Below, in pieces: positions 5,116-36,719 of a stretch of DNA of 36,719 nt; the stretch's first letter is position 1; each line of letters begins with the position of its first letter. The notes beneath the pieces are model-generated. The model searched no databases, was not told where the DNA came from, and was given only the letters and a program-made list of their open reading frames with translations. The position numbers were made by a program, and so were the translations under genes. Source of the DNA: Anaeromicrobium sp. (GTDB lineage Bacteria; Bacillota; Clostridia; Peptostreptococcales; Thermotaleaceae); assembly GCF_025210435.1 (NCBI RefSeq), contig NZ_JAOART010000086.1, forward strand, positions 1 to 36,719, read 5' to 3'.

Positions 5116-5145
5116 AACCCGTCCTTAATAGAATAAGGACGAGTT
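5116..5145 (-). terminator. T-box intrinsic terminator
   Basis: The stem pairs CGTCCTTA with TAAGGACG and is extended by AAC/GTT and a wobble pair. A run of T follows. It competes with the antiterminator that contains the T-box sequence. Confidence 0.9.
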
Positions 5146-5729: not shown

Positions 5730-5962
5730 TAGATTTATGAACACTAAGCTTTCTTTATACAGTAACTTGCCTATAAGGGAAAATATATTGAAAATTTTTG
5801 GAACCCTGGAACGTCACAACATCCTATGCTCCTCCAACATGACTCATGAACCTATCTACGGAGATTCACACTTTCGCTTGTGACAAGAACTTGGGTGGAA
5901 AAAATTTTCAATGGTTTCCTGAAATAGGCCCGCATAAAGTAAGTTTATAATCAAAAAATCTA
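5730..5962 (+). repeat. R repeat, copy A (233 bp, MITE-like)
   Basis: The copy runs from TAGATTT to AAATCTA and is flanked by TA on both sides. Long imperfect inverted arms surround a conserved centre (ACGTCACAACATCCTATGC and TTCACACTTTCGCTTGTGAC). The right arm has decayed (CAATGG where copy B has CAATATA). It lies just after the small RNA terminator and directly before E repeat copy 1. It has no coding capacity. Confidence 0.85.
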
Positions 5963-16251: not shown

Positions 16252-16438
16252 AAGGGCGGTTATAAGGCATATGAAAGAAATAAACTAGTCAATTTTCTGA
16301 GGAATTTGGGTTATCTTAAAGGCATGGTGCCCGAGCATATTAAACATATGTAAGCGACTCCATAACGAAGAAAATAATTAAAATAACCAGTGAAATGACT
16401 AATTTATTTTTTGAATATGCCTAAAATAACCGTCCCTT
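16252..16438. terminator. Terminator stem split by an E repeat
   Basis: AAGGGCGGTTAT (16252-16263) pairs with ATAACCGTCCCTT (16426-16438) except for one bulged base. The arms are separated by E copy 2 in the loop. The stem lies between convergent trpS and a hemerythrin gene and overlaps the latter's stop codon, as expected for a shared bidirectional terminator into which the element inserted. Confidence 0.6.
16264..16425 (+). repeat. E repeat, copy 2 (about 160 bp, MITE-like)
   Basis: The left end AGGCATATGAAAGAAATAAA matches the right end (TTTATTTTTTGAATATGCCT) as an imperfect terminal inverted repeat of about 25 bp. The centre shares several blocks with copy 1 (GGCATGGTG, CATATTAAACATATGTAA, ACTCCATAAC). 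No open reading frame is seen. Confidence 0.85.
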
Positions 16439-17336: not shown

Positions 17337-17367
17337 TCTATTACCCCTTTTTTTATAATTTCCTATA

Positions 17368-17602
17368 TGGATTTCTTGGTTTTAAATTTGTTTTATACAG
17401 TAACTTGCCTATAAGGGAAAATATATTGAAAATCTTTGGAACCCTGGAACGTCACAACATCCTATGCTACTCCAACATGACACGTGAACCTATATCCGAA
17501 GATTCACACTTTCGCTTGTGACAAGGACTTGGGTGGAAAAGATTTTCAATATATTTTCCTGAAATAGGCCCGTATAAAGCAAGTTTATACACCAGAAATC
17601 TA
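17368..17602 (+). repeat. R repeat, copy B (235 bp, MITE-like)
   Basis: The copy runs from TGGATTT to AAATCTA and is flanked by TA on both sides. It contains a perfect 22-bp stem (17416-17437 with 17538-17559), plus GCCTAT/ATAGGC and ACCC/GGGT pairings further out and in. It sits between the sigB terminator and the start of the second hemerythrin gene. Confidence 0.88.
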
Positions 17603-17618
17603 TACTCATCCAATATAA

Positions 17619-17653
17619 ATAAAAGGTTAACTATTAGCAAGCCAACCTTTTAT
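17619..17653 (-). terminator. Terminator of the rsbV-rsbW-sigB operon
   Basis: ATAAAAGGTT pairs with AACCTTTTAT around a 15-nt loop and is followed on the minus strand by TTTATATT. It directly follows the sigB stop. Confidence 0.75.
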
Positions 17654-18442
17654 CTATAATAAACCTTGTAAATCATTTTGAAGTTTTTTTATGATCTTTT
17701 TTTCCATTCTAGATATGGTCATTTGAGATACTTCAAATTTCTTAGCAACTTGAGATTGGGTTTCATTGTTAAAAAATCTGGCCTTTATTATGCTTTTTTC
17801 CATATGGTTTAGTTTTTCTAAACATTTTATTAAAAAGTCTCTGTTTTCTAAACTTTTAAAATCTTTATCTTCTTCTCCTATTAAATCCATTAAAGTAACG
17901 TCTTTGTCTTCTCCATTATTGTCATAACTTAATTCTAAGGATTTGGGAGTATAAACTTGGCTTGCCTCCATTGCTTCTAAAACTTCTTCTTCCGTACACT
18001 CTAGGTACTCAGCTATATCTATTACTTTAGGTACCCTTTGTAGATTTTGTTGAAGTACAACTTTAGCATTATTCACCTTTTTAGACAATTCTTGAATCCT
18101 TCGTGGAACCCTTATAGCCCAGCCTTTATCTCTAAAGTATTTTTTTATTTCTCCAATTATTGTTGGTGTTGCAAAACTGGAAAATTCAAAACCCTTTGAC
18201 GTATCGAATCTTTCTATGGCATATATAAGTCCTAGGGATGCTATTTGTAATATATCTTCATAATCTATTCCCTTATTAACATACTTTTTAGATAATATTT
18301 CCGCTATATATAAGTATCTATTCACTAGTTCATTTCTTATGGTCCTATCCTTATTTTCACGATAAATAGCAAAAAGTTCCTTTGGGTTTAAGTCTTTTAG
18401 GGATTCTTTAGGATATTTCTTTTCATTTAATAAGTTTTCCAT
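17654..18442 (-). CDS. sigB: RNA polymerase sigma factor SigB
   Basis: This is a group 3 sigma-70 factor of the SigB/SigF/SigG type, 262 residues. Region 2 contains YEDILQIASLGLIYAIERFD and FSSFATPTIIGEIKKYFRD; region 3 follows; region 4 ends with the helix-turn-helix QSQVAKKFEVSQMTISRMEK. SigB rather than SigF is preferred because the two upstream partners look like RsbV and RsbW and because the operon has a SigB-type promoter. Its ATG overlaps the rsbW stop by one base (TAATG), so translation is probably coupled. No RsbU-type phosphatase gene is in the window. Confidence 0.88.
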   Translation of the reverse strand: MENLLNEKKYPKESLKDLNPKELFAIYRENKDRTIRNELVNRYLYIAEILSKKYVNKGIDYEDILQIASLGLIYAIERFDTSKGFEFSSFATPTIIGEIKKYFRDKGWAIRVPRRIQELSKKVNNAKVVLQQNLQRVPKVIDIAEYLECTEEEVLEAMEASQVYTPKSLELSYDNNGEDKDVTLMDLIGEEDKDFKSLENRDFLIKCLEKLNHMEKSIIKARFFNNETQSQVAKKFEVSQMTISRMEKKIIKKLQNDLQGLL

Positions 18443-18864
18443 TAAATATCATCCCCTAAATATTTAATCATTTTAATAATGGTCCCTTTTTCTGGTGCTG
18501 ACATAATATCAACCTCATCCATTAGAGATCTTATTATAAATATTCCTAACCCTCCTTCTTTAGGACTAGTTAAATCAGGTTCCTCTATATCTTGGATACA
18601 GAAACCTTTACCATTATCTTGTATTTCTACTATCATTTTATCATATTCGACACAATATTTTATATTAAAATTTTCTAAATTTTCTTCACAAGCACAATTT
18701 CCATATTTAATTGCATTAGTACAAGCTTCTGCAACTGCCACTTTTATATCTTCTATCTCCTCAATATTAAATCCCATTCTGCTTGCCACAGCAGATGTAG
18801 TTAGCCTTACTACATTCACATACTCAGCTTTACTTGGTACAGAAATGGTAAAAACATCACTCAT
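18442..18864 (-). CDS. rsbW: Anti-sigma-B factor, serine protein kinase RsbW
   Basis: RsbW holds SigB inactive and can phosphorylate RsbV. The 140-residue GHKL ATPase fold shows the N box in VAVAEACTNAIKYG and the G1/G2 boxes in QDNGKGF and EGGLGIFIIRSLMDEVDI. The start IPV-like VPSKAEYVNVVRLTTSAVASRMGF closely resembles Bacillus RsbW as I remember it. It lies between rsbV (27-bp gap) and sigB (1-bp overlap). Confidence 0.9.
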   Translation of the reverse strand: MSDVFTISVPSKAEYVNVVRLTTSAVASRMGFNIEEIEDIKVAVAEACTNAIKYGNCACEENLENFNIKYCVEYDKMIVEIQDNGKGFCIQDIEEPDLTSPKEGGLGIFIIRSLMDEVDIMSAPEKGTIIKMIKYLGDDI

Positions 18865-18891
18865 AACTTTATTCCACCTTCTTTTTATGTT

Positions 18892-19200
18892 TTACTTAAT
18901 TACAAAAACTTTATCTAATCCAGTTATTTTTAATAATTTTAATATATTAGAGCCTGCATTTTCTATTATTATATTCTTATTTTGTACCTTTAATTTTTTT
19001 AAAGCTCCAATTAGAACACCAAATCCTGTGCTGTCCATATAAGTTAAGTTTGTACATTCTAATTTTATATCTTTTATCCTTTGATTACTAAGTTCATGAA
19101 GAGTTTCTTTAAACTTGTTAGCAGTGTATATATCTATCTCACCACTTAAATATATTACCCACTCTTCATCAGTATTTTTATAGCTAATATCTAATGACAT
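18892..19200 (-). CDS. rsbV: Anti-anti-sigma factor RsbV (STAS domain)
   Basis: In its unphosphorylated form this 102-residue single STAS-domain protein binds RsbW and frees SigB. The phosphorylation site is Ser in YMDSTGFGVLIG, and SGEIDIYTANKF is the typical RsbV N-terminal strand-helix. ATG has AAAGGAG 8 nt upstream. It is the first gene of rsbV-rsbW-sigB and carries the SigB promoter, so the operon is expected to be self-amplifying. Confidence 0.9.
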   Translation of the reverse strand: MSLDISYKNTDEEWVIYLSGEIDIYTANKFKETLHELSNQRIKDIKLECTNLTYMDSTGFGVLIGALKKLKVQNKNIIIENAGSNILKLLKITGLDKVFVIK

Positions 19201-19225
19201 ATTAGTTTCTCCTTTCCATTAATTT

Positions 19226-19250
19226 TTACCCTCATAATTTATATTTAAAC
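19226..19250 (-). promoter_or_regulatory. SigB promoter of the rsbV-rsbW-sigB operon
   Basis: On the minus strand, GTTTAA (19250-19245), a 13-nt spacer and GGGTAA (19231-19226) match the SigB consensus almost perfectly. The predicted transcript starts about 20 nt before the rsbV ATG. Confidence 0.85.
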
Positions 19251-19283
19251 ACAAAAAAGTCTCTCTATGCAATATATGCAAAA

Positions 19284-19315
19284 AATAAAATGCAGTTTAA
19301 CAACTGCATTTTATT
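19284..19315 (-). terminator. Terminator of the gyrase genes
   Basis: A perfect 14-bp stem around a 4-nt loop, with core AAATGCAGTT/AACTGCATTT, starts 2 bp after the gyrA stop. It is followed on the minus strand by TTTTT. Confidence 0.9.
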
Positions 19316-19317
19316 GT

Positions 19318-21762
19318 CTATTCTTCAATCACTTCTTCTATTTCATTTGCTACTTTAGCTATGGATACTATGCTGTCACCTTCATCAACTCTCATTAAGG
19401 TTACTCCTTGAGTGTGTCTACCCATGGTTGAAATATCCTTAGATTCAAGTCTTATTACTACACCATTTGTATTTATAAGCATAATCTCGTGACTATCAGT
19501 TACTACCTTTGCACCTACTAAATGTCCCGTTTTCTCCTTAACATTATAAGTAAGTAGACCTTTTCCACCTCTATTTTGGCTCTTATACTCATTTAAATCA
19601 GTTCTTTTACCAAAACCAAACTGACTTACTACTAGAAGGTCTGCATTTTCCTCTACTAATTCCATGGCAACTACTATATCATCCGAATCTAAACTCATGG
19701 CTTTAACTCCCATGGCAGCTCTACCCATATCACGAACATCCTTTTCGCTAAATCTTATGGATTTACCACTTTGAGAAACGATCATGACTTCATCATCACC
19801 ATTAGTTTGTTTTACACTTATTAGCTCATCATCATCCTTTAAGCTAATAGCTATAAGACCTGATTTTCTAGAAGTATCAAATTGAGTTAAATCAGTTTTC
19901 TTAATAATACCATTTCTAGTTACAGCTATTAAGTACTTTTCTTTCTCAAACTTCTTAACTGGAATTACAGCCGTTATCTTCTCACTTGGATTTAGTTGAA
20001 GTAGATTTACTATGGCTGTACCCTTAGCCTGTCTTTTTGCCTCAGGAATTTCATAAGCCTTAAGTCTATAAACTCTACCCCTATTAGTGAAAAACAATAG
20101 ATAGTTATGAGTAGACGTTATGAATAAACTCTCAACAAAGTCTTCATCCCTCGTAGTAAGACCTGTAATTCCTTTACCGCCTCTTCTTTGACTCTTATAA
20201 GTATCAGCTGGAATTCTCTTTATGTATCCTAGATGAGTTAATGTTATTGCCACATCTTCTTCATCGATTAAATCTTCTATATCTATTTCATCTTCAGAGA
20301 AGGATATGGCCGTTCTTCTAGGATCATTATATTTTTCTTTTATTTCTAGAATCTCTTCTTTAATTATGTTTAAAAGAAGATGTTCATTAGCTAATATTTC
20401 TCTAAATTTGTTTATTAATTTAATTAATTCTTCATATTCTTCTTCTATTTTTCCACGTTCTAATCCAGTTAACTTTTGAAGTCTCATATCTAGTATGGCC
20501 TTAGCTTGAACTTCTGTAAGTCCAAATCTACTCATAAGACCCTCCCTCGCTTCATTAACATTGGCAGAACTTCTAATTAAAGATATTACTTCATCAATAT
20601 TATCAAGGGCTATTTTTAAACCTTCTAATATGTGAGCTCTATCTTCTGCTTTTCTTAAATCATATTGAGTTCTTCTAGTAACTACATCCTTTTGGTGATC
20701 AAGATAATGTCTTACTAGTTCATATAGATTAAGAATCTTTGGTTGCCCATTAACTAGGGCAATCATTATGATACTAAATGTATCTTGAAGTTGTGTATGC
20801 TTATAAAGTTTATTAAGTACTATGTTAGGATTAATATCTCTCTTTAACTCTATAACTATACGCATACCATTTCTATCTGATTCATCTCTTAAATCAGATA
20901 TACCTTCAATCTTTTTATCTCTAACAAGGTCTGCTATCTTTTCTATAAGTCTAGCCTTATTAACTTGGTATGGAATTTCTGTAGCAATTATTCTGCTCTT
21001 TCCCTTACCCATTTCTTCTATTTCCACATTTGCTCTTACAGTAACTTTTCCTTGACCAGTTCTATAAGCATCTCTTATAGATTCTTTTCCCATTATGGTA
21101 GCTCCCGTTGGGAAGTCTGGCCCCTTCACTATTTGTATTAAATCTTCCACTGTAGCTTCTTTATCATCTATTAGTTTAACTGTAGCATCTATTACTTCAC
21201 CTAGGTTATGGGGTGGAATAGATGTGGCCATACCAACGGCTATACCATTAGAACCATTTACTAATAGATTAGGAAATCTACTTGGAAGTACTGTAGGCTC
21301 TTTTAATGTTTCATCAAAGTTTGGTGTAAAGTTTACAGTTTCCTTTTCAATATCTCTTAACATTTCCACAGCTAACTTTTGCATTTTTGCTTCCGTATAA
21401 CGCATGGCAGCTGCACCGTCACCATCTACAGAACCAAAGTTTCCATGACCATTTACTAACAGATATCTTATGGAGAAATCCTGTGCCATTCTTACCATTG
21501 CATCGTATACGGATGTGTCACCATGTGGGTGATACTTACCAAGCACGTCTCCAACGATACGTGCTGATTTTCTATGTGGTTTCTCTGGGCTTAAACCCAG
21601 TTCATTCATTGCATATAGGATTCTTCTGTGAACAGGTTTTAGTCCATCTCTAACATCAGGTAGAGCTCTTCCTACAATTACACTCATAGCATAATCTATG
21701 TAGGATTTTTTCATTTCCTGTTCTATGTCCACCTGAATAATTTTAGTTTGATCTTCTATCAT
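19318..21762 (-). CDS. gyrA: DNA gyrase subunit A
   Basis: GyrA is the DNA-cleaving subunit of gyrase, which puts negative supercoils into DNA. At 814 residues it is full length. The catalytic tyrosine is Tyr122 in [11 protein letters not shown]. The quinolone-determining region reads [17 protein letters not shown], with Thr83 and Asp87 in E. coli numbering, a usual clostridial wild-type state. C-terminal beta-pinwheel repeats include the GyrA box QRRGGKG. The C-terminus ends in an acidic EEVIEE. It lies 21 bp after gyrB with its own AGGGGG site. Confidence 0.98.
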
Positions 21763-21783
21763 TCTTTTGCCCCCTTAGACAAA

Positions 21784-23715
<1,932 letters not shown>

Positions 23716-23807
23716 TTAATATAGCTATAAATTATTACATTAAAGCCCATATCTCACATTTATTTTATAGGGTTACCTATCTAACTATTTACTTATAATT
23801 TTATTTT

Positions 23808-24098
23808 TCATATATATATATCTTCCACATTATTGGCTCTTTTTTGAAGAGTTACAGATGATATGGGAGAATAGTAAACTATAGTTTTTATAACTTTTCT
23901 CTTTTTATTTATTTCTACCGTTTCTGTTATAACGCAGGATTTTATCTTATCATCTGATATTTTACGCACAAATTCTTCTTCTTCTATAACCTTTAAAAAC
24001 TCTCTTCCTGTTTTAGATTTTTTAAAGGTTTCATAGTCTAATATAGAAATAATATTCTTCCTTGGAACTACCACATCTTTTCCCAAATGAAGGAACAT
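23808..24098 (-). CDS. remB: RemB/YaaB-like extracellular matrix regulator
   Basis: This 96-residue protein belongs to the DUF370 family. It begins MFLHLGKDVVVPRKNIISIL and lies between recF and gyrB exactly as yaaB (remB) does in Bacillus subtilis, where it affects biofilm matrix genes. RemB is thought to act with RemA, which is not in this window. I chose ATG 24098 because GAGGAGG sits 7 nt upstream; an upstream ATG at 24122 would add eight residues without a better site. Its role here is inferred from position and homology only. Confidence 0.85.
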   Translation of the reverse strand: MFLHLGKDVVVPRKNIISILDYETFKKSKTGREFLKVIEEEEFVRKISDDKIKSCVITETVEINKKRKVIKTIVYYSPISSVTLQKRANNVEDIYI

Positions 24099-24188
24099 AA
24101 AAATACCTCCTCGAAAAATCATCCACCTTCTATTATAACCTTTTATTACCTCATATACAAAAGATTTAGGTGCATATTTTATATTTGA

Positions 24189-25295
24189 TTATCTGCTCCT
24201 ATTCACTTGAGCATTTTCAACATGAAAAATAAAAGCGTCGTCCATATTTAACTCTTCTAAATTGTTTATCTCCGTAGTAGTTATAAATAATTGCACATCC
24301 TTTAATGCCCTTATTAAAAAGTTTTGTCTATTAATATCTAGTTCTGACATGACATCATCTAATAGCAATACGGGATATTCTCCCGTTTCTCCCTTTACAA
24401 GTTCAATTTCAGCCAACTTTAATGATAAAGCACAAGTCCTTTGTTGTCCCTGAGATCCAAAACTTCTTATATCTATTTTATCAATAAAAACGCCTAAATC
24501 ATCCCTATGGGGTCCCACTGTTGTAGTTCCCCTTCTCATATCTGTTTTTAAGGATTCTTTTAACTGACTTTTAAATCTATCCTTCAATTGTTCCTTGTCT
24601 TCTGTATAATCTATATTACTTAGGTATTTTATTTCCATATTTTCCTTGTTGTCAGTTATTTTTCTATGTATAAGTCTGCTAAGGGGGGTTATTCTCTTTA
24701 CAAATTTTGCCCTTTCCTCAATTATCTTCACACCTACATCTATTAGTTTTTCATCCCATACTTCTAACATGAATTCACTGTCTTTTCCCTTCATGTTTTT
24801 AAGTAAATGATTTCTTTGTATAAGTATCTTGTTATAATTATTTAGGTTATGAAAATAATAAGGCTTCATTTGAGAGAGCTCGTTATCCATAAATTTACGC
24901 CTTTCTGATGGGCCTTCTTTTATAAGTCTTAAATCTTCTGGAGAAAATATAACCACATAAATATTGTTTAATATGTCAGAATTTTTACTTAAAGATAATT
25001 TGTTTACTTTCATACGCTTTTTTTTGTTAGCTACTAATTTTATTTCAACTTCCACATTAGAATACTTCTTTTGCCCTTCTACCTTCACATAGGCCTGATT
25101 TTTGTTAAACATTATGAGTTCCTTATCCTTACTAGTTCTAAAGGATTTTCCCAGTGATGTCATATATATGGCCTCTACTATGTTTGTTTTCCCTTGAGCA
25201 TTATTTCCTACAAATATATTTAATTTTTCATTTAAATCCAATTCTAATTCTTTATAATTTCTAAAGTTTATTAACTTTAATCTTTTTAAATACAC
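24189..25295 (-). CDS. recF: DNA replication and repair protein RecF
   Basis: RecF is an SMC-like ATPase that helps load RecA at gaps and restart forks. The protein has about 368 residues. The Walker A is in FVGNNAQGKTNIVEAIYM, the ABC signature in SFGSQGQQRT, and Walker B in PVLLLDDVMSELD. I chose the GTG at 25295 (AAGGGG 7-8 nt upstream), giving the family start MYLKRLKLINFRNY; a GTG three codons earlier overlaps the ribosome site. It follows the S4-domain gene by under 20 bp. Confidence 0.96.
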   Translation of the reverse strand: MYLKRLKLINFRNYKELELDLNEKLNIFVGNNAQGKTNIVEAIYMTSLGKSFRTSKDKELIMFNKNQAYVKVEGQKKYSNVEVEIKLVANKKKRMKVNKLSLSKNSDILNNIYVVIFSPEDLRLIKEGPSERRKFMDNELSQMKPYYFHNLNNYNKILIQRNHLLKNMKGKDSEFMLEVWDEKLIDVGVKIIEERAKFVKRITPLSRLIHRKITDNKENMEIKYLSNIDYTEDKEQLKDRFKSQLKESLKTDMRRGTTTVGPHRDDLGVFIDKIDIRSFGSQGQQRTCALSLKLAEIELVKGETGEYPVLLLDDVMSELDINRQNFLIRALKDVQLFITTTEINNLEELNMDDAFIFHVENAQVNRSR

Positions 25296-25313
25296 CAGAT
25301 GCACCCCTTGAAA

Positions 25314-25520
25314 TTAAATGACCTCTATTGATTCTCCTTCAACTTGTACTTTATCTCCCTTGTATATCTTTTTACCACGTCTAGTTTCTACTTCTCCATT
25401 AACAGTAACTTCTCCCGATGTTATAAGAAATTTTGCGTGGCCTCCCGTTTGAACCACTGCTGCAAGTTTTAGTAATTTATCTAACTGAATAAATTCTCCA
25501 TTAATTTGAATTTTTTCCAT
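25314..25520 (-). CDS. yaaA: S4-domain RNA-binding protein YaaA/RlbA
   Basis: This 68-residue protein consists almost entirely of one S4 RNA-binding fold: LDKLLKLAAVVQTGGHAKFLI, then the GEVTVNGEVETRRGKKI loop and GDKVQVEG. It lies between dnaN and recF, its invariant place in Firmicutes. A ribosome-related role is assumed for the family but is not established. ATG has AGGAGG upstream. Confidence 0.93.
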   Translation of the reverse strand: MEKIQINGEFIQLDKLLKLAAVVQTGGHAKFLITSGEVTVNGEVETRRGKKIYKGDKVQVEGESIEVI

Positions 25521-25595
25521 AATATTTCCTCCTAATCATATACCACTTAATTTATTATGTGATTTATTTAATATAATTAAACCTACTCCAAACTC

Positions 25596-25623
25596 TTAAA
25601 GGGACTCTTAAGAGCCCCTTTAA
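25596..25623 (-). terminator. Hairpin between dnaN and yaaA
   Basis: TTAAAGGG-CTC pairs with GAG-CCCTTTAA around TTAA, with one mismatch. It lies after E copy 3 and dnaN. The T tract after it is poor, so it may slow or partly stop transcription between dnaN and yaaA-recF. Confidence 0.4.
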
Positions 25624-25626
25624 TCT

Positions 25627-25683
25627 TAGGCATATTCAAAAAATAAATTAGTCATTTCACTGGTTATTTTTTTCATATGCCTT
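25627..25683 (-). repeat. E repeat, copy 3 (57-bp internal deletion form)
   Basis: On the minus strand this reads from AGGCATATGAAAAAAAT directly into AACCAGTGAAATGACTAATT and the normal right end ATATGCCTA. About 100 bp of the centre seen in copies 1 and 2 is missing. The element begins at the dnaN stop codon TAA (TAAGGCATATG). Confidence 0.85.
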
Positions 25684-26785
25684 ATTCAACTATTCTAACT
25701 GGTAATATTAAGTAAGTATAATTTTCATTGTCCGTAGGTTTTATAATACAAGGACTTACATTAGTTGTAAATTCCAATTGAATCTGTTCACTATCTATTA
25801 TTTTTAACGCATCTATAAAATATTTTGAATTAAATCCTATATCTAAATCTTTTCCCTCTAAATCTATACTTACATTTTCAAGTACATTTCCTATTTCTGC
25901 ATTTGAAGTTATGGTAAGTTCTTCATCTCTTATGGAGAGCTTTACTAAATTGTTTTTACCTTCTTTTGCAAGTAATGATGCACGTTCTATACTATTTAAT
26001 AAATCCTTTGTATTCACAGTTAATCTAGACTTGTAGTCTGTAGGAATAATTTGTTTGTAATTAATAAACTCTCCTTCTAACAATCTAGATACTACTTTAG
26101 TATTGTTCATGTTAAATAATATGTGTTTATCTGTAATATAAATTCTAACTTCTTGGCCGTCTTCTTCTGATAATAGACGATTTATTTCATTTAATGTTTT
26201 TGCTGGAATAACAGCCTTTCCTTCAAATTCACTCTTTATAGTAGCCTCTCTTAAAGCCAATCTATATCCATCTAGGGCAACCATGTTTATGGTTTCTGGT
26301 TCTAATTTCATAAGAACTCCCATTAATATGGGTCTTGTTTCATCAATAGCAGTGGCAAATACTGTTTGCCTAATCATGTTTTTTAATAAATCTTGTGAAA
26401 TAGTATAGCCATAATCTTCTTCTACCTCTGGAAGATCAGGAAAGTCTTCTGAGTTTTGAGCAAGTAATGTAAACTCTGAATTTCTGCATCTTATAATGGT
26501 TTTATTATTATCATGGACTTCTATTTCTATATTATCATCGGGAAGCTTTCTTACAATGTCTCCTAAGATCCTTGCTGATAATACAAGGGACCCTTCCTTT
26601 ATTATTTCTGCATCTATATAATTTTCAATTCCTATTTCCAAATCTGTTCCAACTAATTTTAATTTATCATCATATGCTTCAAGTAAGATACCTTTTAAAA
26701 TAGGAAGATTACTCTTAGATGAAATTGCTTTTTGAACAGTTCCTATTCCAGAAGCTAATACTTTTTGGCTACAAATAAACTTCAT
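25682..26785 (-). CDS. dnaN: DNA polymerase III sliding clamp (beta)
   Basis: The 367-residue ring protein tethers polymerase III to DNA. The three-domain clamp pattern is clear, from MKFICSQKVLASGIGTVQKA through SARILGDIVRKLP to the C-terminal PTDNENYTYLILPVRIVE. AAGGAGG precedes the ATG, and a perfect DnaA box TTATCCACA fills the space between them. The stop codon touches E copy 3. Confidence 0.97.
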   Translation of the reverse strand: MKFICSQKVLASGIGTVQKAISSKSNLPILKGILLEAYDDKLKLVGTDLEIGIENYIDAEIIKEGSLVLSARILGDIVRKLPDDNIEIEVHDNNKTIIRCRNSEFTLLAQNSEDFPDLPEVEEDYGYTISQDLLKNMIRQTVFATAIDETRPILMGVLMKLEPETINMVALDGYRLALREATIKSEFEGKAVIPAKTLNEINRLLSEEDGQEVRIYITDKHILFNMNNTKVVSRLLEGEFINYKQIIPTDYKSRLTVNTKDLLNSIERASLLAKEGKNNLVKLSIRDEELTITSNAEIGNVLENVSIDLEGKDLDIGFNSKYFIDALKIIDSEQIQLEFTTNVSPCIIKPTDNENYTYLILPVRIVE

Positions 26786-26786
26786 T

Positions 26787-26946
26787 TGTGGATAACCTCC
26801 TTTTGCTTTTAAACATAAATAAATATAAATTTTTAGTAGTAATAGTAGTAGGGCCTGTGAATTTGTGGATAAGTCTATTTTTCTTTAAAATATCAACAAT
26901 TTACCCCTATAATAACTTGTTAATATATATCTAATAGTTATCCACA
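26787..26946. other. oriC, dnaA-dnaN part: DnaA boxes, DnaA-trio-like element and AT-rich DNA
   Basis: Perfect DnaA boxes occur at 26787-26795 and 26864-26872 (TGTGGATAA) and at 26938-26946 (TTATCCACA). Next to the middle one are a degenerate box TGTGAATTT (26856), a GC block GGGCC (26851-26855) and six tandem trinucleotides TAG TAG TAA TAG TAG TAG (26834-26851), followed by AT-rich sequence. This order, box then GC block then trinucleotide run, is that of the DnaA-trio unwinding system described for Bacillus. I infer that this is the strand-opening site. Confidence 0.8.
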
Positions 26947-27021
26947 TATTCCACTATACCTAACCTTTTATAAGTTATTAACATTTTATTAAGATACAAT
27001 ACACACTTAATTGTGTATTAA

Positions 27022-28362
27022 TTATTTTTCTTTAATATCCTTAATTATGACCTCTATTTTATCTTTAACATTAGAATCTTTCTCAATATCCTTTGATATT
27101 TTTTCATGGGCATGTATGACCGTAGTATGATCTCTTCCTCCAAATTCTTCACCAATCTTAGGAAGGGAAAGATCAGTTAATTCCCTACTTAAATACATGG
27201 CAATTTGTCTAGGATAGGCGATAGATCTAGGTCTCCTTTTGGAGCTAAAATCTTCTAATTTTATGGAATAGTGTTGTGCAACTACTTCCTTTATAAGTTG
27301 TATATTTATCTGTTTAGGTCTGTTAGAAGAAATAATATCCTTCAAAGCTTCTGTAGCAAGTTCAATAGTTACATCCTTATTGGTTAGAGATGAATAGGCT
27401 ACAATCCTTATTAGGGCTCCTTCTAATTCCCTAATATTAGATTGAATTTTCTTTGCTATATAATGCATAACTTCATTTGGTACATCAATGCCTTCTATTT
27501 CTGCCTTTTTTCTTAGAATTGCTATTCGAGTTTCAAAGTCTGGAGCTTGAATATCAGTAATAAGACCCCATTCAAATCTAGAACGTAGACGATCTTCTAA
27601 TGTGGGAATTTCCTTTGGTGGCCTATCACTAGATATGATGATCTGTTTATTAGCCTCATGGAGAGCGTTAAATGTATGGAAAAATTCTTCTTGAGTACGT
27701 TCTTTTCCAGCTATAAATTGAATATCATCTATTAATAGGACATCTATATTTCTGTATTTATTTCTAAAAGCTTCATTTTTATCATCCCTTATGGAGTTGA
27801 TAAGTTCATTTGTAAATTTTTCAGAAGAAACATACACCACTTTAGAGCTAGGATTTTGTCCTAAAATAAAATGACCAATAGCGTGCATTAAGTGAGTTTT
27901 ACCAAGTCCAACCCCACCGTATAAAAAGAGGGGGTTGTAGGCCTTAGCAGGAGCTTCTGCAACGGCTAGGGAAGCAGCATGAGCAAATCTATTACTATTA
28001 CCGATTACAAAGGTATCGAATACGTATTTTGGATTCAAATTCAAATTATCAAATTGCTCTGCTTGTACTATTTTTTTTTCTGTAGATTTAGATGCCTTTA
28101 AGTATGATTCACTACCTGGTATTGTAAATTCTAAGTTGTATTCCTTAGAAGTAACTTGTTTTAAAGCATTTGAAATTAAGCTAGCATACCTAGCTTCTAA
28201 AATTCCTTTAGAAAAATCATTAGCAACAGCTAAAACTATACGATTATTGTGAAGGGCTATGGGCTCTATAGGCTTTAACCAAGTATTGTAACTAACTTCA
28301 GTAAGTTCTGTTTTTAAAAGATTTAAAGCCATTTGCCATATTTCACTTAAATTAGTGTTCAT
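27022..28362 (-). CDS. dnaA: Chromosomal replication initiator protein DnaA
   Basis: DnaA binds DnaA boxes and opens the origin. The 446-residue length is typical. Domain I starts [23 protein letters not shown]. Domain III has Walker A in [15 protein letters not shown] and Walker B in [20 protein letters not shown]. Domain IV has the signature [18 protein letters not shown] follows AAGGAGG. Its upstream region is full of DnaA boxes, and a likely -10 (TATAAT at 28433-28428) overlaps one, so autoregulation is expected. Confidence 0.98.
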
Positions 28363-28417
28363 AGGAAAACCTCCTTAAGAAAAAAATATATATATATAAA
28401 AATTAAATTTTTAATGA

Positions 28418-28810
28418 ATATCCACAAATTATACACAGAAAATGTGGATAATTTTTTCAAAAACAACAAAATATGAGTATAATTTTTATAAAGTGGGAAA
28501 TTAATAACCTTGTGGATAGTGTATGGATAAAATATTGAATTAATGCCAAAAAAAAAGCTTGTACACAAAGCTATTAATAACTTTTAATAATTACTAACAG
28601 GGAATAGATATTGTAATTACTAAGTAAATAGTAATAATCATGTAGTTATACACAGAATTGTCCACATGCTGTGCATAACTGTGCATATGTGAAATATTTT
28701 TTAACATATTAACAATTGTTATTTAATGATATCAAATAAAGTAGACCTTTTCAATCATATACACCAATTTATCCACAAGAAAAAAACTAGGGTGGATAAA
28801 TTTGTCCACA
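28418..28810. other. oriC, rpmH-dnaA part: DnaA-box cluster
   Basis: This 577-bp gap between dnaA and rpmH holds no credible gene. Perfect boxes are at 28443-28451 and 28769-28777. TTATNCACA-type boxes are at 28429-28437, 28646-28654 and 28670-28678. One-mismatch boxes are at 28418, 28511, 28522, 28658, 28680, 28791 and 28802. Boxes occur on both strands. Together with the dnaA-dnaN gap they make a two-part origin around dnaA. Confidence 0.88.
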
Positions 28811-28831
28811 TAACTGTAGAAAATATCCAGC

Positions 28832-28860
28832 TTGACAGATTATTTTTATCCAGTTATAAT
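28832..28860 (+). promoter_or_regulatory. rpmH promoter
   Basis: A full consensus promoter: TTGACA, a 17-nt spacer and TATAAT. It points toward rpmH-rnpA and starts about 73 nt before the rpmH ATG. Confidence 0.88.
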
Positions 28861-28939
28861 TATTTAGTAAATGTCAATTTTAATTGTAAATTTGGTTTGT
28901 ATCATATATATAGGTGAATTATGAAGGGGGTGTTCTAAA

Positions 28940-29074
28940 ATGAAAAGAACTTATCAACCAAAAAAGAGACAGAGAAAGAAAGAGCATGGATTCAGAAAAA
29001 GAATGAAGACTGCAGCAGGAAGAAACATAGTAAAAAAACGTAGAAGAAGAGGCAGAAAAAGTTTGACTGCATAA
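28940..29074 (+). CDS. rpmH: 50S ribosomal protein L34
   Basis: The 44-residue, very basic ribosomal protein reads [20 protein letters not shown] and continues with the standard [23 protein letters not shown] 28940 follows GGGGGTG. Its place next to the origin before rnpA is conserved in bacteria. A short terminator-like hairpin follows. Confidence 0.98.
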
Positions 29075-29098
29075 GGCCGCATAATTAGTGGCCTTTTT
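29073..29098 (+). terminator. Hairpin after rpmH
   Basis: AAGGCC pairs with GGCCTT, followed by T residues, overlapping the rpmH stop. The short stem may allow read-through into rnpA, helping to give more L34 than RNase P protein. Confidence 0.6.
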
Positions 29099-29156
29099 CT
29101 ATAATTTCTAATATATTATAGGAAAATTCAAATCATTTTTGAAAGAAGGCTAATAA

Positions 29157-29492
29157 ATGAAGGAAACTTTACGCTTAAGAGATAAGAAAGTATTCGGTAG
29201 AATATATAAAAAAGGGTCTTCTTTAGCCAATAAGTATTTAGTATTGTTTTTTATGAAAAACGACTTAGATGTAAATAGAGTTGGTTTTATTGCAAGCAAA
29301 AAAGTTGGAAAAAGCACAGTGAGAAACAGAGCAAGACGATTGATGAAAGAAAGTTTTAGAAAATTTGAAATACGATTAGAAAAAGGTCATGATATAGTAA
29401 TAATAGCCAGAAAAAATATAGTAGATGTTTCAGGCAATGATGTTGATAAAGCCATGAGACATGCTTTAAGGAAGTCTAAACTACTAAAATAG
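29157..29492 (+). CDS. rnpA: Ribonuclease P protein component
   Basis: This basic 111-residue subunit helps RNase P RNA cut the 5' leader from pre-tRNA. The RNR motif is in KVGKSTVRNRARRLMKESFR, and FGRIYKKGSSLANKYLVLF is the typical N-terminal half. ATG follows GAAGG. Its stop is at the yidD start region. Confidence 0.96.
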   Translation: MKETLRLRDKKVFGRIYKKGSSLANKYLVLFFMKNDLDVNRVGFIASKKVGKSTVRNRARRLMKESFRKFEIRLEKGHDIVIIARKNIVDVSGNDVDKAMRHALRKSKLLK

Positions 29493-29501
29493 GTGAAAAC
29501 A

Positions 29502-29720
29502 TTGAATATAATGAAGGAAATTCTAATATTCATGGTGAAGTTATATAGAAGGTATATCTCACCATTGAAAAAACCATCTTGTAGATTTTATCCTACCTGC
29601 TCCCAATATGCCCTAGAAGCTTTAGAAAAGTATGGTGCATTTAAAGGGAGTTATTTGGCTATAAAAAGAATTTTAAAATGTCATCCTTTTCATCCAGGTG
29701 GTTATGATCCTTTAGAATAG
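29502..29720 (+). CDS. yidD: Membrane protein insertion efficiency factor YidD
   Basis: YidD is a small membrane-associated protein that helps YidC-dependent insertion. The family signature [15 protein letters not shown] and the end [13 protein letters not shown] are present. The start is uncertain: TTG 29502 has GGTG 6 nt upstream, ATG 29511 gives the most family-like start ([19 protein letters not shown]) but lacks a good site, and GTG 29493 is also open. It lies between rnpA and yidC as usual. Confidence 0.93.
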
Positions 29721-29740
29721 ATTGAGTGGGAGGTAAACAC

Positions 29741-30406
29741 ATGATAACAGCAATAGCTAAGCCCTTAGGTATGTTACTGAATGTATTATATTCCGTGGTG
29801 GGAAATTATGGAATCACTATAATATTATTTACATTAGTAATTAAACTTTTCTTATTACCTTTGACTTTTAAGCAGCTAAAAAGTACTAGCAAAATGACAG
29901 AAATTCAACCAGAGATAAAGAGAATACAAGAAAAGTATAAGAATGATAAAGAAAAATTAAATCAAAAGACTATGGAGTTATACCAAAAACACAAAGTAAA
30001 TCCAGTTGCAGGATGTTTACCTTTATTAATACAAATGCCCATATTATTTGGTCTCTTTGCCGTTTTAAGAAATCCAGGGACTTACGCTGGAGCAGCCATT
30101 GAGGCGGCTAGTATGGAACCATTTTTATGGATGAGCAGTTTAAAGGAGCCAGACTTATGGATACTTCCCATAGCGGCAGCCATAACTACGTATTTTTCAA
30201 TTAAGAGTAGTTCGGGAGCAAATTCACAAGCTGCAGAAAATCAAACAATGAAAACCATGAATATGATTATGCCAATTATGATTTTATTTTGGGGACGTGG
30301 ATTTCCAGCGGGACTATGCCTATATTGGGTAGTAAGTAATCTATTCCAAATGGTACAACAGATGGTGATGCCTAAGCCAGGAACATCTAAGGAGGAATTG
30401 AGTTAA
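29741..30406 (+). CDS. yidC: Membrane protein insertase YidC/SpoIIIJ
   Basis: This is a polytopic insertase of about 221 residues, the short Gram-positive form. The first membrane segment is in YGITIILFTLVIKLFLLPL, where Lys takes the place of the groove Arg. Then come the cytosolic hairpin (QPEIKRIQEKYKNDKEKLNQ) and three more membrane segments ending GLCLYWVVSNLFQMVQQ. I chose ATG 29741 because GGGAGG lies 7 nt upstream; an upstream ATG at 29726 is poorer. No lipoprotein signal is seen. It stops 1 bp before jag. Confidence 0.95.
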   Translation: MITAIAKPLGMLLNVLYSVVGNYGITIILFTLVIKLFLLPLTFKQLKSTSKMTEIQPEIKRIQEKYKNDKEKLNQKTMELYQKHKVNPVAGCLPLLIQMPILFGLFAVLRNPGTYAGAAIEAASMEPFLWMSSLKEPDLWILPIAAAITTYFSIKSSSGANSQAAENQTMKTMNMIMPIMILFWGRGFPAGLCLYWVVSNLFQMVQQMVMPKPGTSKEELS

Positions 30407-30407
30407 T

Positions 30408-31025
30408 ATGAAATTCACAGAAAAGACAGGAAAAACTGTAGAAGAAGCTGTGAAAAATGCCCTAGAAGAGCTGAATGTAGGAAGAGAAGAAGTCGACATT
30501 GAAGTATTAGAAGTACCAAGCCGTGGCATTTTTGGATTAATAGGGACTAGACCAGCAAAGATAAAAGTTACTGTTATAGATAATCCAGAAAGAAAAGCGA
30601 CAGAATTTCTAGAAGATATGTTACAAAAAATGAACATAGTAGCAAAATACAAAACTAAATTAGAAAATAATACTCTAAACCTAGAAATTATAGGGAGTAA
30701 CATGGGTGTATTAATAGGTAAAAGAGGACAAACATTAGATGCTATCCAATATCTTGTAAGTTTAGTGGTAAACAAGGAACGAGATGAGTATATAAGGGTA
30801 GTTTTAGATACTGAAAACTATAGAAGAAAAAGAAGACAAACCTTAATAAAATTGGCGAATAAATTGGCATATAAAGCAAAATCCACTAGTAGAGATGTGG
30901 TATTAGAGCCAATGAACCCATATGAAAGAAGAATAATTCATGCTGCTTTACAAAACCATCCACATGTGGTTACAAAGAGTAAAGGTGAAGAACCTTTTAG
31001 AAAAGTAGTAATTGAAGTAAAATAA
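30408..31025 (+). CDS. jag: RNA-binding protein Jag/KhpB
   Basis: The 205-residue protein shows Jag_N (first about 50 residues, with PSRGIFGLIGTRPAKIKV), a KH domain with GxxG in LIGKRGQTLDAIQYL, and a C-terminal R3H domain with NPYERRIIHAALQNHP. It is encoded right behind yidC, as usual. It is linked to RNA regulation and cell envelope growth in other Firmicutes. A terminator follows. Confidence 0.95.
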   Translation: MKFTEKTGKTVEEAVKNALEELNVGREEVDIEVLEVPSRGIFGLIGTRPAKIKVTVIDNPERKATEFLEDMLQKMNIVAKYKTKLENNTLNLEIIGSNMGVLIGKRGQTLDAIQYLVSLVVNKERDEYIRVVLDTENYRRKRRQTLIKLANKLAYKAKSTSRDVVLEPMNPYERRIIHAALQNHPHVVTKSKGEEPFRKVVIEVK

Positions 31026-31033
31026 ATTAACTA

Positions 31034-31063
31034 AAAACCCAGTATATTTTACTGGGTTTTATT
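31034..31063 (+). terminator. Terminator of the rpmH-jag cluster
   Basis: AAAACCCAGTA pairs perfectly with TACTGGGTTTT around a 5-nt loop, giving an 11-bp stem with built-in T run. Confidence 0.88.
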
Positions 31064-31126
31064 ATTGTAAAGAATTAATGAAATACATATATGGAATAAT
31101 ATTAAAGATATAATAGAACAATACTC

Positions 31127-31154
31127 TTTACAAAGGACTGTGTTTTAATATAAA
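31127..31154 (+). promoter_or_regulatory. Probable promoter of mnmE-mnmG-rsmG
   Basis: TTTACA, a 16-nt spacer and TATAAA. It lies about 55 bp before mnmE, after the jag terminator. Confidence 0.5.
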
Positions 31155-31211
31155 TTATGGTTTAGGGATTAGGAATTAAAAATAAGGGAAAGAAAAAATA
31201 GAGGTGATATG

Positions 31212-32594
31212 ATGGCAGAAAATACTATAGCAGCCATAGCCACTGCTCCTGGGGAAGCAGGAATTGGAATTGTTAGATTAAGTGGAGAGAAATCAATACA
31301 TATTTTAGATGAAATATTTAAACCTACCAGGAAAAATTCCATAAAAGATTATGAGCCTAGAAGAATAACCCATGGAAAAATAATAGATCCACATACACAA
31401 AAGATAGTAGATGAAGTATTAGTAACTTATATGAAGGAACCTTTCACATACACAGGAGAAGATGTAGTTGAAATAAATTGTCATGGTGGGATGGTTCCTG
31501 TAAAAAATATATTGGATCTTGTATTAAGGCAGGGAGCTTTTATGGCTGATAGGGGAGAATTTACTAAGAGAGCCTTCTTAAATGGTAGAATAGATCTTTC
31601 TCAGGCAGAGGCAGTAATGGATATGATAAAGGCAAAAACATCCACTGGATTTCACGTGGCCCTTAATCAATTAGAAGGAAGTTTATCTAATGAAGTTAAG
31701 GTTATAAGACATGATTTATTAGAAGTATTAGCACATATAACTGTTAATATAGACTTTCCAGATGAGGATATTGAAGAACTTACATATGACAAACTTGAGA
31801 AAGATTCTATTAAAATCCTTGAAAAAGTAGAAAAATTATTAGATACGGCCCATACAGGAAAAATATTGAAAGAGGGATTAAATACAGTTATAATAGGAAA
31901 ACCTAATGTGGGAAAATCTTCACTAATGAATGCCCTACTTAAGGAATCTAGAGCCATAGTTACGGATGTTCCTGGAACTACTAGGGATATTATTGAAGAG
32001 ATCATATCTATTAAGGGAATTCCTTTAAGAATCACAGATACGGCTGGAATTAGAGAAACACAAGATGTGGTTGAAAAGATAGGTGTAGAGAGAAGTAAGG
32101 AGTCCTTTAATAAGGCAGATTTAGTAATATTCATATTAAATGCATCAGAGGAATTATCTATTGAAGATAAGGAAATAATGGATAAATTAAAGGATAAAGA
32201 AACTATCATATTAATGAATAAAACCGATTTACCTAATGTGATAGACTTAGAAGAAATAAAAAAATTATTGCCAGGGAAAAGTATCATTCCTATTTCTGTA
32301 AAGGAAAATAAGGGTTTAGATTTACTTGAAGATAAAATTGTTAATATGGTATATGAAGGTAAAGTACAGAGGAATGAGGACTCTTTAGTAACAAATGCAA
32401 GACACAAAAGGGCATTAGAAGTAGGTAAAACTAGTATGGAAGAGGGTATAGAGGCCATACGATCAGGACTTGCTCTGGATTTTGTGGAAGTTGACATTAA
32501 AGACTGTTGGGAATCTCTAGGAGAAATAACAGGTGATACCACATCAGAAGATATGCTAGATAGGATATTTAGCTCATTCTGCATAGGAAAATAA
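31212..32594 (+). CDS. mnmE: tRNA modification GTPase MnmE
   Basis: With MnmG it makes 5-carboxymethylaminomethyluridine at the wobble base of several tRNAs. The protein has about 460 residues. The N-terminal formyl-tetrahydrofolate-binding part begins [20 protein letters not shown]. The G domain has [20 protein letters not shown] and NKTD. The C-terminal catalytic Cys is in FSSFCIGK. Two ATGs lie in tandem; 31212 has the better distance from GAGGTG. mnmG follows after 14 bp. Confidence 0.97.
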
Positions 32595-32608
32595 AGGGAG
32601 GATTAGCC

Positions 32609-34501
32609 ATGGAAAGATACATATCAGGAAATTATGATGTAATAGTTGTTGGAGCTGGACATGCAGGTTGCGAGGCTTCCTTGGCAGCGTCACGTATGGG
32701 GTGTTCTACTCTATTATTATCTATAAATTTAGACTCAATAGCTATGATGCCCTGCAATCCATCTATAGGAGGAACGGGAAAGGGTCATTTAGTCAAGGAG
32801 ATAGATGCCCTAGGTGGAGAAATGGGACTTAACATAGACAGGTCCTTTATACAAAGTAAGATGCTCAATACGGCAAAGGGACCAGCTGTACACTCATTAA
32901 GAGCTCAAGCTGATAAAAACCTTTATCATAGAGAAATGAAAAAAGTATTAGAAGAAGAAGATAATTTAGAAGTTAGGCAGGCAGAAGTAATTGAACTTTT
33001 AGTTGAGGACCATGTGGTTAAAGGTGTAGTTACTAAAACTGGAGGAGTATATAATGCTAAGACAATAATATTATGCACGGGAACTTATTTAGGTGGAAAG
33101 ATATTCATAGGACAAATGAGTTATACTAGTGGACCTAATGGTCTATCTGCATCTTTAGATCTAACTGATAGCTTACAAAAGCATGGACTTAATATGAGAA
33201 GATTTAAGACGGGAACACCTGCTAGATTAGATAGCAAAACATTAGATTTTAGCAGGATGGAAGAACAACCAGGAGATGAAAAAATAGTTCCTTTCTCTTT
33301 TATGAACAAGGAACTTAGTGTCAAGCAAGTACCATGTTGGCTTACATATACAAATAATGAAACCCATGAGATAATAAAGAACAATCTTCATCGTTCAGCC
33401 ATGTACTCTGGTGATATAGAGGGAACAGGGCCAAGATATTGTCCATCTATTGAAGATAAGGTAGTGAGATTTTCAGAAAAACAAAGACATCAACTATTCG
33501 TTGAACCAGAGGGACTTCACACTAATGAAATGTATATTCAGGGTATGTCTACAAGTTTACCTGAAGATGTACAATTAGCATTTTATAGAAGTATTCCAGG
33601 ACTTGAAAATTCTAAAATTATGAGACCTGCTTATGCTATAGAGTATGATTGTATAGATCCTCTTCAATTGAAGTTAACTTTAGAATCTAAGGAAATAGAC
33701 GGATTATTTTCTGCAGGCCAATTTAATGGAAGTTCTGGATATGAAGAAGCGGGAGCTCAAGGTCTAATAGCAGGGATAAATGCATCCTTAAAGATACAAG
33801 GGAAAGAACCATTTATACTAGATCGCTCAGAAGCTTATATAGGTGTTTTAATAGATGATTTAGTAACAAAGGGTACTAATGAACCTTATCGTATGATGAC
33901 CTCTCGTGCAGAATATAGATTAGTCCTTAGACAAGACAATGCAGATTTGAGATTAACGGAGAAAAGTTATAGGGCAGGTCTTGCATCTAAAGAAAGATAT
34001 GAGGCTTTAATTGAGAAAAAGAAAAATATAGATGCTGAAATGGAACGATTAAAGGAAGTTAAGATAAGACCTAGTGTGGTAAATGATTATCTAGAGTCCA
34101 TAGGTACAGCACCTTTAAGTCAGGGAATGTCCTTATACGATCTTTTAAAGAGGCCACAAGTTACATATGAAGAAATAGCCTTTGCCGATGAAAATAGACC
34201 AGAACTTGATAGATTTGTAATAGAACAATGCCAAGTTCAAATTAAATATGATGGATATATTAAAAAGCAACTAAGGCAAATAGATCAATTTAAGAAATTA
34301 GAAATGAAAAAATTAAATCAGAAAATAGATTACTCAAAAATAGAAGGATTAAGACTTGAAGCAAGACAGAAGCTTGATGAAATTAAACCCCTATCTGTCG
34401 GACAAGCTTCTCGTATTTCAGGCGTATCTCCAGCAGATATATCTGTATTATTAGTTTACTTAGAGCAACAAAGGAGAAAGAGAAGTGGAAAAGATGACTA
34501 A
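32609..34501 (+). CDS. mnmG: tRNA uridine-34 carboxymethylaminomethyl modification enzyme MnmG
   Basis: MnmG is the FAD-dependent partner of MnmE, 630 residues, the full-length form. The FAD fold has [19 protein letters not shown], and [20 protein letters not shown] is one of the family signatures; the C-terminal region has [18 protein letters not shown]. It overlaps rsmG by 17 bp. ATG follows GGGAGGA. Confidence 0.98.
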
Positions 34502-35210
34502 TGAACAAATATTAAGGGAAGGCTGTGAAAAGTTAGGTCTTTCTATAGATGATAATAGGATAAATAAGTTTATTAAATATAAGGATATATTAGTAGAGTG
34601 GAACAAGTTTATGAATCTTACGGGTATAACAGAAGATAGGGAAGTTATGATAAAACACTTCCTAGACTCCCTATCTTGCTTATCGCTAGACTACATAAAA
34701 GAGGACTCTAGTGTGATAGATGTGGGAACAGGAGCTGGTTTTCCTGGTATCCCCATAAGAATATATCATGATGGGGTCAAATTAACCCTACTAGATTCCT
34801 TAAATAAGAGAATAAAGTTTTTACAGGAAGTTTGTACTGAAAATAATTTAGATAATGTGGACTTTGTCCATGGAAGAGCTGAAGATATAGGAAAGAAAAA
34901 AGAATATAGAGAAAAGTATGATATAGCTGTTGCAAGGGCTGTAGCCAGATTAAATGTGCTGTGTGAATATTGTCTTCCCTTTGTAAAGGTTGGAGGATAC
35001 TTTATCTGTCAAAAGGGTCCAACTATTAATGAAGAATTAGAAGACGGAAAGAAGGCCATAAGTATACTAGGGGGAGAATTAGTAGAAAAGGTAGATATAC
35101 ATATTCCTTATACGGATTTAAGCCATAATGTGGTAATAATAAGGAAAGTAAAAAATACCCCTAATAAATATCCTAGGAAAGCAGGAACTCCAACTAAGAA
35201 TCCTTTATAG
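34485..35210 (+). CDS. rsmG: 16S rRNA (guanine-527-N7) methyltransferase RsmG
   Basis: The 241-residue SAM-dependent enzyme methylates G527 of 16S rRNA. The SAM motif is [14 protein letters not shown]. The end [14 protein letters not shown] is the usual RsmG C-terminus, so the protein is complete. GTG 34485 has AGGAG 8 nt upstream; ATG 34494 is a weaker choice. The TAG stop (35208-35210) is formed by the first three bases of R copy D. Removing the repeat and one TA copy would give a TAA stop at the same codon. Confidence 0.95.
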
Positions 35211-35442
35211 ATTTATCTGTTGATAATAAGCTTTGTGTGAGCCTACTTCAGGAAAATGTATTAAAATTTTTTTCCATCGAAGTCACCTGTCACATGCTAA
35301 AGTGTGAATATTGAATATGGGTTCATGTGTCATGTTGAAAGAGCATAGGATGTTGTGACGTTCCACGATTCCAAAAAATTTTAATACATTTTCCCTTGTA
35401 GGCAAGTTACTGTATAAAGGAAGCTTAGGGTTACGAAATCTA
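35208..35442 (-). repeat. R repeat, copy D (235 bp, MITE-like, inverted orientation)
   Basis: The copy lies opposite to A, B and C and is the most diverged. It is flanked by TA on both sides. Its 22-bp stem (35251-35272 with 35373-35394) is perfect although it differs from copy B at four positions in each arm. GCCTAC/GTAGGC and ATCG/CGAT replace GCCTAT/ATAGGC and ACCC/GGGT of copy B. Confidence 0.87.
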
Positions 35443-35477
35443 TAAAAGTTAGTACTTAAATTAGGGTTAAATATGTT

Positions 35478-36546: not shown

Positions 36547-36719
36547 TAGATTTCTTGGTTTTAAGATTGTTTTATATAGTAACTTGCCTATAAGGGAAAA
36601 TATATTGAAAATCTTTGGAACCCTGGAACGTCACAACATCCTATGCTACTCCAACATGACACATGAACCTATATACGAAGATTCACACTTTCGCTTGTGA
36701 CAAGGACTTGGGTGGAAAA
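36547..36719 (+). repeat. R repeat, copy C (cut by the window end)
   Basis: The sequence begins TAGATTTCTTGG after TA and is nearly identical to copy B through the centre. The right arm lies outside the window. Just before it, at about 36526-36545, is ATATGAAAGAAATAAA, like the left end of the E repeat, so an E end fragment may abut it as copy 1 abuts R copy A. Confidence 0.85.

Follow-up and report, generated by a model that had tools for sequence, protein, structure and literature searches.

Whether the matched arms of a small genomic repeat are kept in step by selection on a folded strand, by copying from one arm to the other or by descent from a few subfamilies is the question raised by a 36,719-nucleotide (nt) stretch of DNA from Anaeromicrobium sp. 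(contig NZ_JAOART010000086.1, positions 1 to 36,719; the window in what follows). A first-pass annotation of the window had singled out two copies of a repeat, B (17368..17602, + strand) and D (35208..35442, - strand), which differ in sequence and keep their hairpin; both prove to be full copies of one element, here called the R element. Each forms a perfect 22-bp stem, the four differences between these stems are matched in the opposite arm as had been described, and further matched changes in the adjoining stems (GCCTAT/ATAGGC versus GCCTAC/GTAGGC, one pair; ACCC/GGGT versus ATCG/CGAT, two pairs) bring the total to seven. The same pattern recurs in two larger sets, one of 114 full-length host copies and the other of 77 copies taken from a genome of the same genus (G001; hereafter the sister species). 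As an overall reading, a miniature inverted-repeat transposable element (MITE) that is mobilised in trans and carries a selected folded core, most likely of RNA, between cistrons is judged rather probable.

Identity and spread of the element

The R element is a non-autonomous MITE of the IS630/Tc1-mariner type, about 235 bp long, as follows from its target duplication and from the ends that it has in common with an IS630-type element; the annotation, which had contrasted it with a decaying dead MITE, needs correction on this point. Copies B and D sit between TA dinucleotides (17366-17367 and 17603-17604 for B, 35206-35207 and 35443-35444 for D), so that the coordinates first assigned to them are those of the element exactly, minus the TA flanks. 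Duplication of the target is evident in a 48-nt repeat (I4, window 16380-16427), which reads GAC-TA-ATTT when empty and GAC-TA-TAGATTT...AAATCTA-TA-ATTT when filled at locus L156. The termini TATAGATTT/AAATCTATA, or versions that differ by one base, are found in a large majority of the 114 full-length copies, and TATA is common to adjoining copies. The 48-nt repeat is itself a second small repeat family of the window, with copies at 16380-16427 and 25623-25670 that are 98% complementary, and it has served as a target of the R element at loci L156 and L136.

Three fragments of IS630-type transposase genes (PF13358; L228, L229 and L230) were found in the host genome, all at or near contig ends. 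Two of them, L228 and L230, lie at contig ends and carry the terminus TATAGATTT(ATT/CGT)GGTAAAGACTTTGTTTTATG, which matches the left end of the element in 26 of 31 bases for the best copy and in 20 of 31 on average over the 114 copies; this comparison concerns the 3' side of the transposase only, as the other end of the insertion sequence lies beyond the contigs. Beyond the first nine bases the best copy, picked as such, still matches at 17 of 22 positions, compared with a mean of 8.9 and a maximum of 16 in 2000 shuffles. The third fragment, L229, is interrupted by an in-frame stop and does not have the common terminus, and may thus belong to a different insertion sequence. From this likeness we infer that an IS630-type transposase would act in trans on the ends of the element (TAGATTT...AAATCTA and the longer similar stretch) and insert it at TA.

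The host draft genome (3.96 Mb, 148 contigs) holds some 250 copies of this non-coding element, located between genes. A conserved block, GGAACGTCACAACATCCTATG, was found with at most three mismatches at 247 places in the genome (117 forward, 130 reverse), and a reversed-pattern control gave none. For the host alignment, 163 hits were extracted, of which 49 were dropped as not full length; for the sister species, 84 model matches were reduced to 77 by removal of seven reverse-strand hits of the same palindromes. Numerous copies stand at contig ends (window 36547-36719, L027, L033, L034, L048, L050 and L087-L091), which suggests that the element probably interrupted the assembly and that there may be more copies than were counted. 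Four copies lie in the window (A, B, D and E), three of them (A, B and D) of full length; copy E (36547..36719, + strand) is truncated by the contig end and lies on the same strand as the gene to its left (35701-36501, +).

A covariance model of the core, R1 (47 sequences, 165 positions), matched three of 17 genomes of the family, namely the host (at least 150 matches), the same-genus genome (85) and one metagenome-assembled genome (G015; 4). Across the 17 family genomes and 298 genomes of the order that were scanned, G015 is the only place outside the genus where the element occurs, and its copies may be contamination. Matches in three other genomes (G005, G009 and G010; E 1e-5 to 1e-3) fall in coding-like sequence with no surrounding element and were taken as chance, and the sole additional match of the order-wide scan, a weak one (G138, E 0.007) in an apparent coding region, was likewise dismissed. 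Among the matches listed in a scan of named genomes, a copy is present in record JAOARP010000036.1, on a 12,108-bp contig. No match to the element was obtained by blastn against plasmids and phages, nor did a degenerate form of the block match viral contigs.

The MITE family is new: no description of it was found in the open-access literature among the matches listed. The suggestion that this is an undescribed structured element also stands as far as Rfam was searched, with no match overlapping the element in the window at the gathering score, in 17200-17700 to E 1 or in six further loci to E 1. Likewise, the annotation's view that the element lacks coding capacity agrees with copy B, which is overlapped by no open reading frame (ORF) longer than 63 amino acids (aa), the 63-aa one beginning outside it. 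In searches for internal signals, two promoter-like sites were found, both outside the element, where 2.0 were expected, and no terminator-like site.

The folded core and its paired changes

The part inside the ends, a core about 163 nt long, is predicted to fold as a branched long hairpin of four stems, in which an internal loop AAG/GAA recurs and which contains the block GGAAC...AACATCCTATG. In copy B, on the + strand, the core (17406..17570) is matched by R1 with 180.4 bits. Stem 1 pairs GCCTAT (17407..17412) with ATAGGC (17564..17569) and includes a covarying pair, column 62/214; the 22-bp stem 2 pairs 17416..17437 with 17538..17559; stem 3 pairs ACCC (17441..17444) with GGGT (17531..17534); and stem 4 pairs GTCACA (17451..17456) with TGTGAC (17517..17522). 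The block GGAACGTCACAACATCCTATG of the genome-wide pattern search occupies 17446..17466. Copies B and D fold better than every one of 200 dinucleotide-shuffled sequences (z -9.8 for B, -7.1 for D), as is expected of any long inverted repeat.

In 47 core sequences from the two species (26 + 21), 28 named pairs are of standard type in 94.5% of cells, against a shuffled mean of 80.9%, and 18 of the 28 have changed on both sides. The covariation score of these sequences is 0.395, compared with 0.158 after shuffling and 0.076-0.107 with slid partners. Because relatedness could inflate such a score, a tree-based null was used, in which trees were built and each column was simulated independently along them, pairs variable on both sides being testable. 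In its pair-specific form, run on 42 of 61 host pairs (24 testable) and 38 of 43 sister pairs (22 testable), the host inner core has 8 of 10 testable pairs at p<=0.05 and the host outer ends have covariation in 0 of 14, while 11 of 22 pairs reach p<=0.05 in the sister species. Slid-partner controls reach that level in 9 of 110 tests for the sister species and in 10 of 134 for the host, core and ends pooled; Bonferroni correction leaves two significant pairs in the former and one in the latter. Coupling of single pairs is also visible within one subfamily, as in type 2 column 74/233 (TA 38, CG 34, TG 1) and column 85/221 (TA 46, AT 23).

The constraint is thus limited to the inner core, and the outer ends decay as the ends of a MITE should. 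The proposal that the copies do not simply decay is accordingly upheld for the core, whose pairs are kept beyond decay, and fails for the outer ends.

Two subfamilies have a common architecture and differ at many stem pairs. Type 2 accounts for 73 of the 77 copies of the sister species, and the other four, which resemble the type 1 of the host, are left out of its type 2 statistics. Inner stem 4 is GTCAC/GTGAC in the host and mostly ATCAG/CTGAT in the sister species, where ATCAC/GTGAT and ATGAC/GTCAT occur in single copies each. The block GGAAC/AACATCCTATG is identical between the two consensuses in 15 of 15 columns; the apical region is probably partly misaligned between them. Covariation in the core only, together with two subfamilies of one architecture, indicates that the folded strand is probably under selection, with RNA as the most likely molecule: lineages with a broken pair would have survived when the partner changed too, and the ends would be free of this constraint.

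The history of the subfamilies can be followed at four orthologous sites (101 and 75 loci compared), which hold a host type 1 and a sister type 2 copy in the same orientation (L082/L250, L058/L213, L127/L284 and L150/L247). At L082/L250 and L150/L247 the host copy adjoins a decayed type 2 half, as judged by eye, from which it appears that type 2 probably predates the species split and that the expansion of type 1 in the host came afterwards. A search of the host for type 2 elements that are still intact gave only partial matches, within the part common to type 1 (40 of 213 candidates scored). At L127/L284 the right junctions coincide. There are hints that one type was replaced or converted by the other at the orthologous sites. 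In the sister species, some copies form head-to-head pairs a few tens of bases apart (L217, L234, L235 and L242), and those at L217 and L235 consist of one type 1 and one type 2 copy.

Strand, orientation and rival explanations

Departures from Watson-Crick pairing in stems 1 and 2, with expected counts taken from the transition share in loops, are biased toward wobble pairs. The sister species has 37 GU, 8 AC and 22 other departures where 17, 17 and 32 are expected (p=2e-7), and the host has 35, 22 and 31 where 20, 20 and 47 are expected (p=3e-4); GU:AC is slightly reversed in stem 3 (6:8) and stem 4 (4:5) of the sister species. The bias, together with the confinement of covariation to the core, speaks for selection on a folded strand.

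The copies are also strongly oriented. With the strand of copy B as reference, antisense copies make up 112 of the 123 that lie between co-directional genes (54 versus 5 sense in the sister species, 58 versus 6 in the host); the count covers 75 sister and 101 host copies with enough flank, 2 of 77 and 13 of 114 having been dropped for short flanks or a repeated core. Of the five copies in sense orientation in the sister species, three belong to head-to-head pairs. The stop codon of the gene upstream in the direction of the mRNA lies at most 30 bp from the element in 35 of 61 cases in the sister species and in 32 of 74 in the host. Copy B runs antisense to the genes on either side, a hemerythrin-like gene (16923-17336, -) and a sigma factor-like gene (17654-18442, -), as does copy D to its own two neighbours; the rsmG-like ORF upstream of D (34485-35210) takes its stop codon, TAG, from the first three + strand bases of D. 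As the copies stand mostly between co-directional genes, antisense and in many cases immediately after a stop codon, they are probably transcribed together with these genes, and they may act as orientation-dependent RNA processing or stability elements between cistrons, as reported for ERIC and NEMIS; such a role in mRNA, argued by analogy, is possible but on the doubtful side. Orientation follows GC skew in seven of ten copies in mixed gene contexts, opposes it in two and is unclear in one, so that transcription and replication are not separable as its cause.

Several observations weigh against the overall reading. An all-against-all null, stricter than the pair-specific one that was applied after it, leaves 1 of 43 structure pairs in the sister species and 0 of 61 in the host at E<=0.05; covariation thus exceeds the phylogenetic expectation under the pair-specific null and falls short of it under the all-against-all null. 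Trees from recombining repeats of 165-240 nt are weak, and more trust is therefore placed in the contrast between core and ends than in single p-values. The subfamily consensuses are no more alike over unpaired columns (51/81) than over paired ones (36/56), and conservation of the block is partly a matter of ascertainment, as the block served to find many of the copies. Pairing is not kept by every copy: in copy A (5730..5962, + strand, full length and antisense to both neighbours) stem 2 is disrupted in its right arm, CAATGGTTTCC. The host excess of GU over AC (35:22) is not significant (p=0.11), and in the host outer ends the ratio is reversed (36 GU versus 57 AC). The strand that keeps wobble pairs in the sister species is the one antisense to the flanking genes, so that A.C mismatches would fall on the co-transcribed strand in that species. 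Folding energy favours the + strand in 55 of 73 sister copies versus 37 of 114 host copies, the sense strand folding slightly better in 77 of 114 in the host; as the species contradict each other, choice of the strand by folding energy was rejected. The sister species yielded no PF13358 transposase at E<=0.001, and a compound arm variant, discussed below, points to arm exchange.

Copying between arms, by template switching in a hairpin or by gene conversion between inverted copies, would produce matched changes with no selection on structure, and template switching in RNA hairpins is, according to the portion of the literature consulted, a published route to matched stem changes (PMC8794818). 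Two patterns here are in line with it. Scored by arm length, the variant AAATATATTG -> AAACNATTG (N standing for T, C or G) or a comparable shortening is present in the left arm only in 16 of the 114 host copies, in the right arm only in 12, in both in 16 and in neither in 70, and a compound change of this kind (a 2-nt deletion plus a substitution) on either or both arms shows that arm copying, or recombination between copies, takes place as well. Stem 3 haplotypes are mosaic-like as well (ACCC/GGGT 68, ATTG/CAAT 15, mixed ATTG/GGGT 14, ACCC/CAAT 4). Nevertheless, coupling is seen in core pairs only, whereas the outer ends, which are likewise palindromic, are uncoupled (0/14); the internal loop AAG/GAA and a nearly invariant G.T pair (found in all 114 host copies and in 69 of the 73 of type 2) have gone uncorrected; and arm copying predicts no GU preference, yet the sister species has 37:8. 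As a full explanation it is considered unlikely. The annotation had offered selection and arm copying as alternatives; core-only covariation, mismatch depletion and the single architecture favour selection, and the compound variant indicates that the two are not exclusive. Both are thought to act, with selection as the main reason that the pairs persist.

An equally improbable explanation is selection for a DNA structure, a one-strand hairpin or cruciform needed for transposition or protein binding; G.T is milder than A.C in DNA too. It would accommodate the preference for GU over AC (37:8) on the strand antisense to the genes of the sister species, and the orientation that also tracks replication in the ten mixed contexts. 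Against it, Tc1-mariner-type transposition starts from cleavage of both DNA strands at the element's ends and is not known to need an internal hairpin; moreover, the antisense strand is reasoned to be the leading-strand template rather than the exposed lagging-strand template, and the GU preference falls short of significance in the host. Between the two molecules first proposed, RNA or a cruciform, RNA is likely, with strand evidence split between the two species. That the element is an ordinary decaying MITE whose matched changes are inherited subfamily differences is very improbable. Such a reading would fit the uncompensated decay of the outer ends, the many common states that few subfamilies explain and the nearly empty all-against-all null, but it is opposed by the pair-specific tree null with its slid controls and by near-perfect coupling of single pairs inside one subfamily (columns 74/233 and 85/221).

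Other features of the window include a T-box leader (Rfam RF00230, 104 bits) at 5132-5353, upstream of a leuA-like gene on the - strand. The hemerythrin-like gene beside copy B has a tandem paralog (16437-16850 and 16923-17336; 137 aa each, DNA identity 73%).

Known repeats and significance

Several TA-inserting repeats of other bacteria resemble the R element and are set apart from it, on the descriptions consulted, by length and host. The closest parallels include RUP of Streptococcus pneumoniae, a small non-autonomous repeat with TA ends, ends common to an IS630-type element (IS630-Spn1 being the proposed mover), a long hairpin and more than 100 copies (PMC2229807, PMC3049150); RUP is 107 bp long and of other sequence, and the portions of those accounts considered here do not mention a core of covarying stems. 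ERIC/IRU of enterobacteria is likewise a TA-inserting palindromic repeat, described as lying between co-transcribed genes and destabilising mRNA according to its orientation (PMC2229807), but it measures 127 bp, belongs to other bacteria and has another sequence, and its effect is experimental, whereas here there is an orientation bias only. Correia/NEMIS of Neisseria, a TA-flanked MITE of 107-155 bp and of other sequence, gives transcripts that are described as forming stem-loops cut by RNase III (PMC2229807). For a possible action of the R element, ERIC and NEMIS supply the models that come closest. A survey of stem-loop repeats in 40 bacterial genomes reports a common fold predicted by RNAz for 57 of 92 families and has two Clostridium species in its table; in the parts consulted, neither this element family, its genus nor phylogeny-aware covariation was seen (PMC2267715). 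Template-switch maintenance of hairpins, as far as the excerpt consulted goes, explains matched multi-base stem changes and is a mutation mechanism rather than a family; it leaves core-only coupling unexplained (PMC8794818).

A more far-reaching idea, advanced tentatively and with more doubt than conviction, is that the core represents a new class of structured non-coding RNA carried as MITE cargo, which would serve the spread of the element or its tolerance by the host. Pairing would be selected on the antisense strand, the ends would decay freely, and the two subfamilies would have succeeded one another with the same RNA architecture.

Bacterial MITEs are usually regarded as inert hairpins in which pairing is a by-product of inverted ends. 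The R element separates the two, as its ends decay uncompensated and its core keeps the fold. About 250 copies in a single genome, together with the 77 studied from a relative, make it a good natural data set for weighing RNA selection against hairpin-templated copying, and its antisense bias points to a testable effect on neighbouring genes. The family should also be useful for asking how an RNA fold could aid the spread or tolerance of a mobile element.

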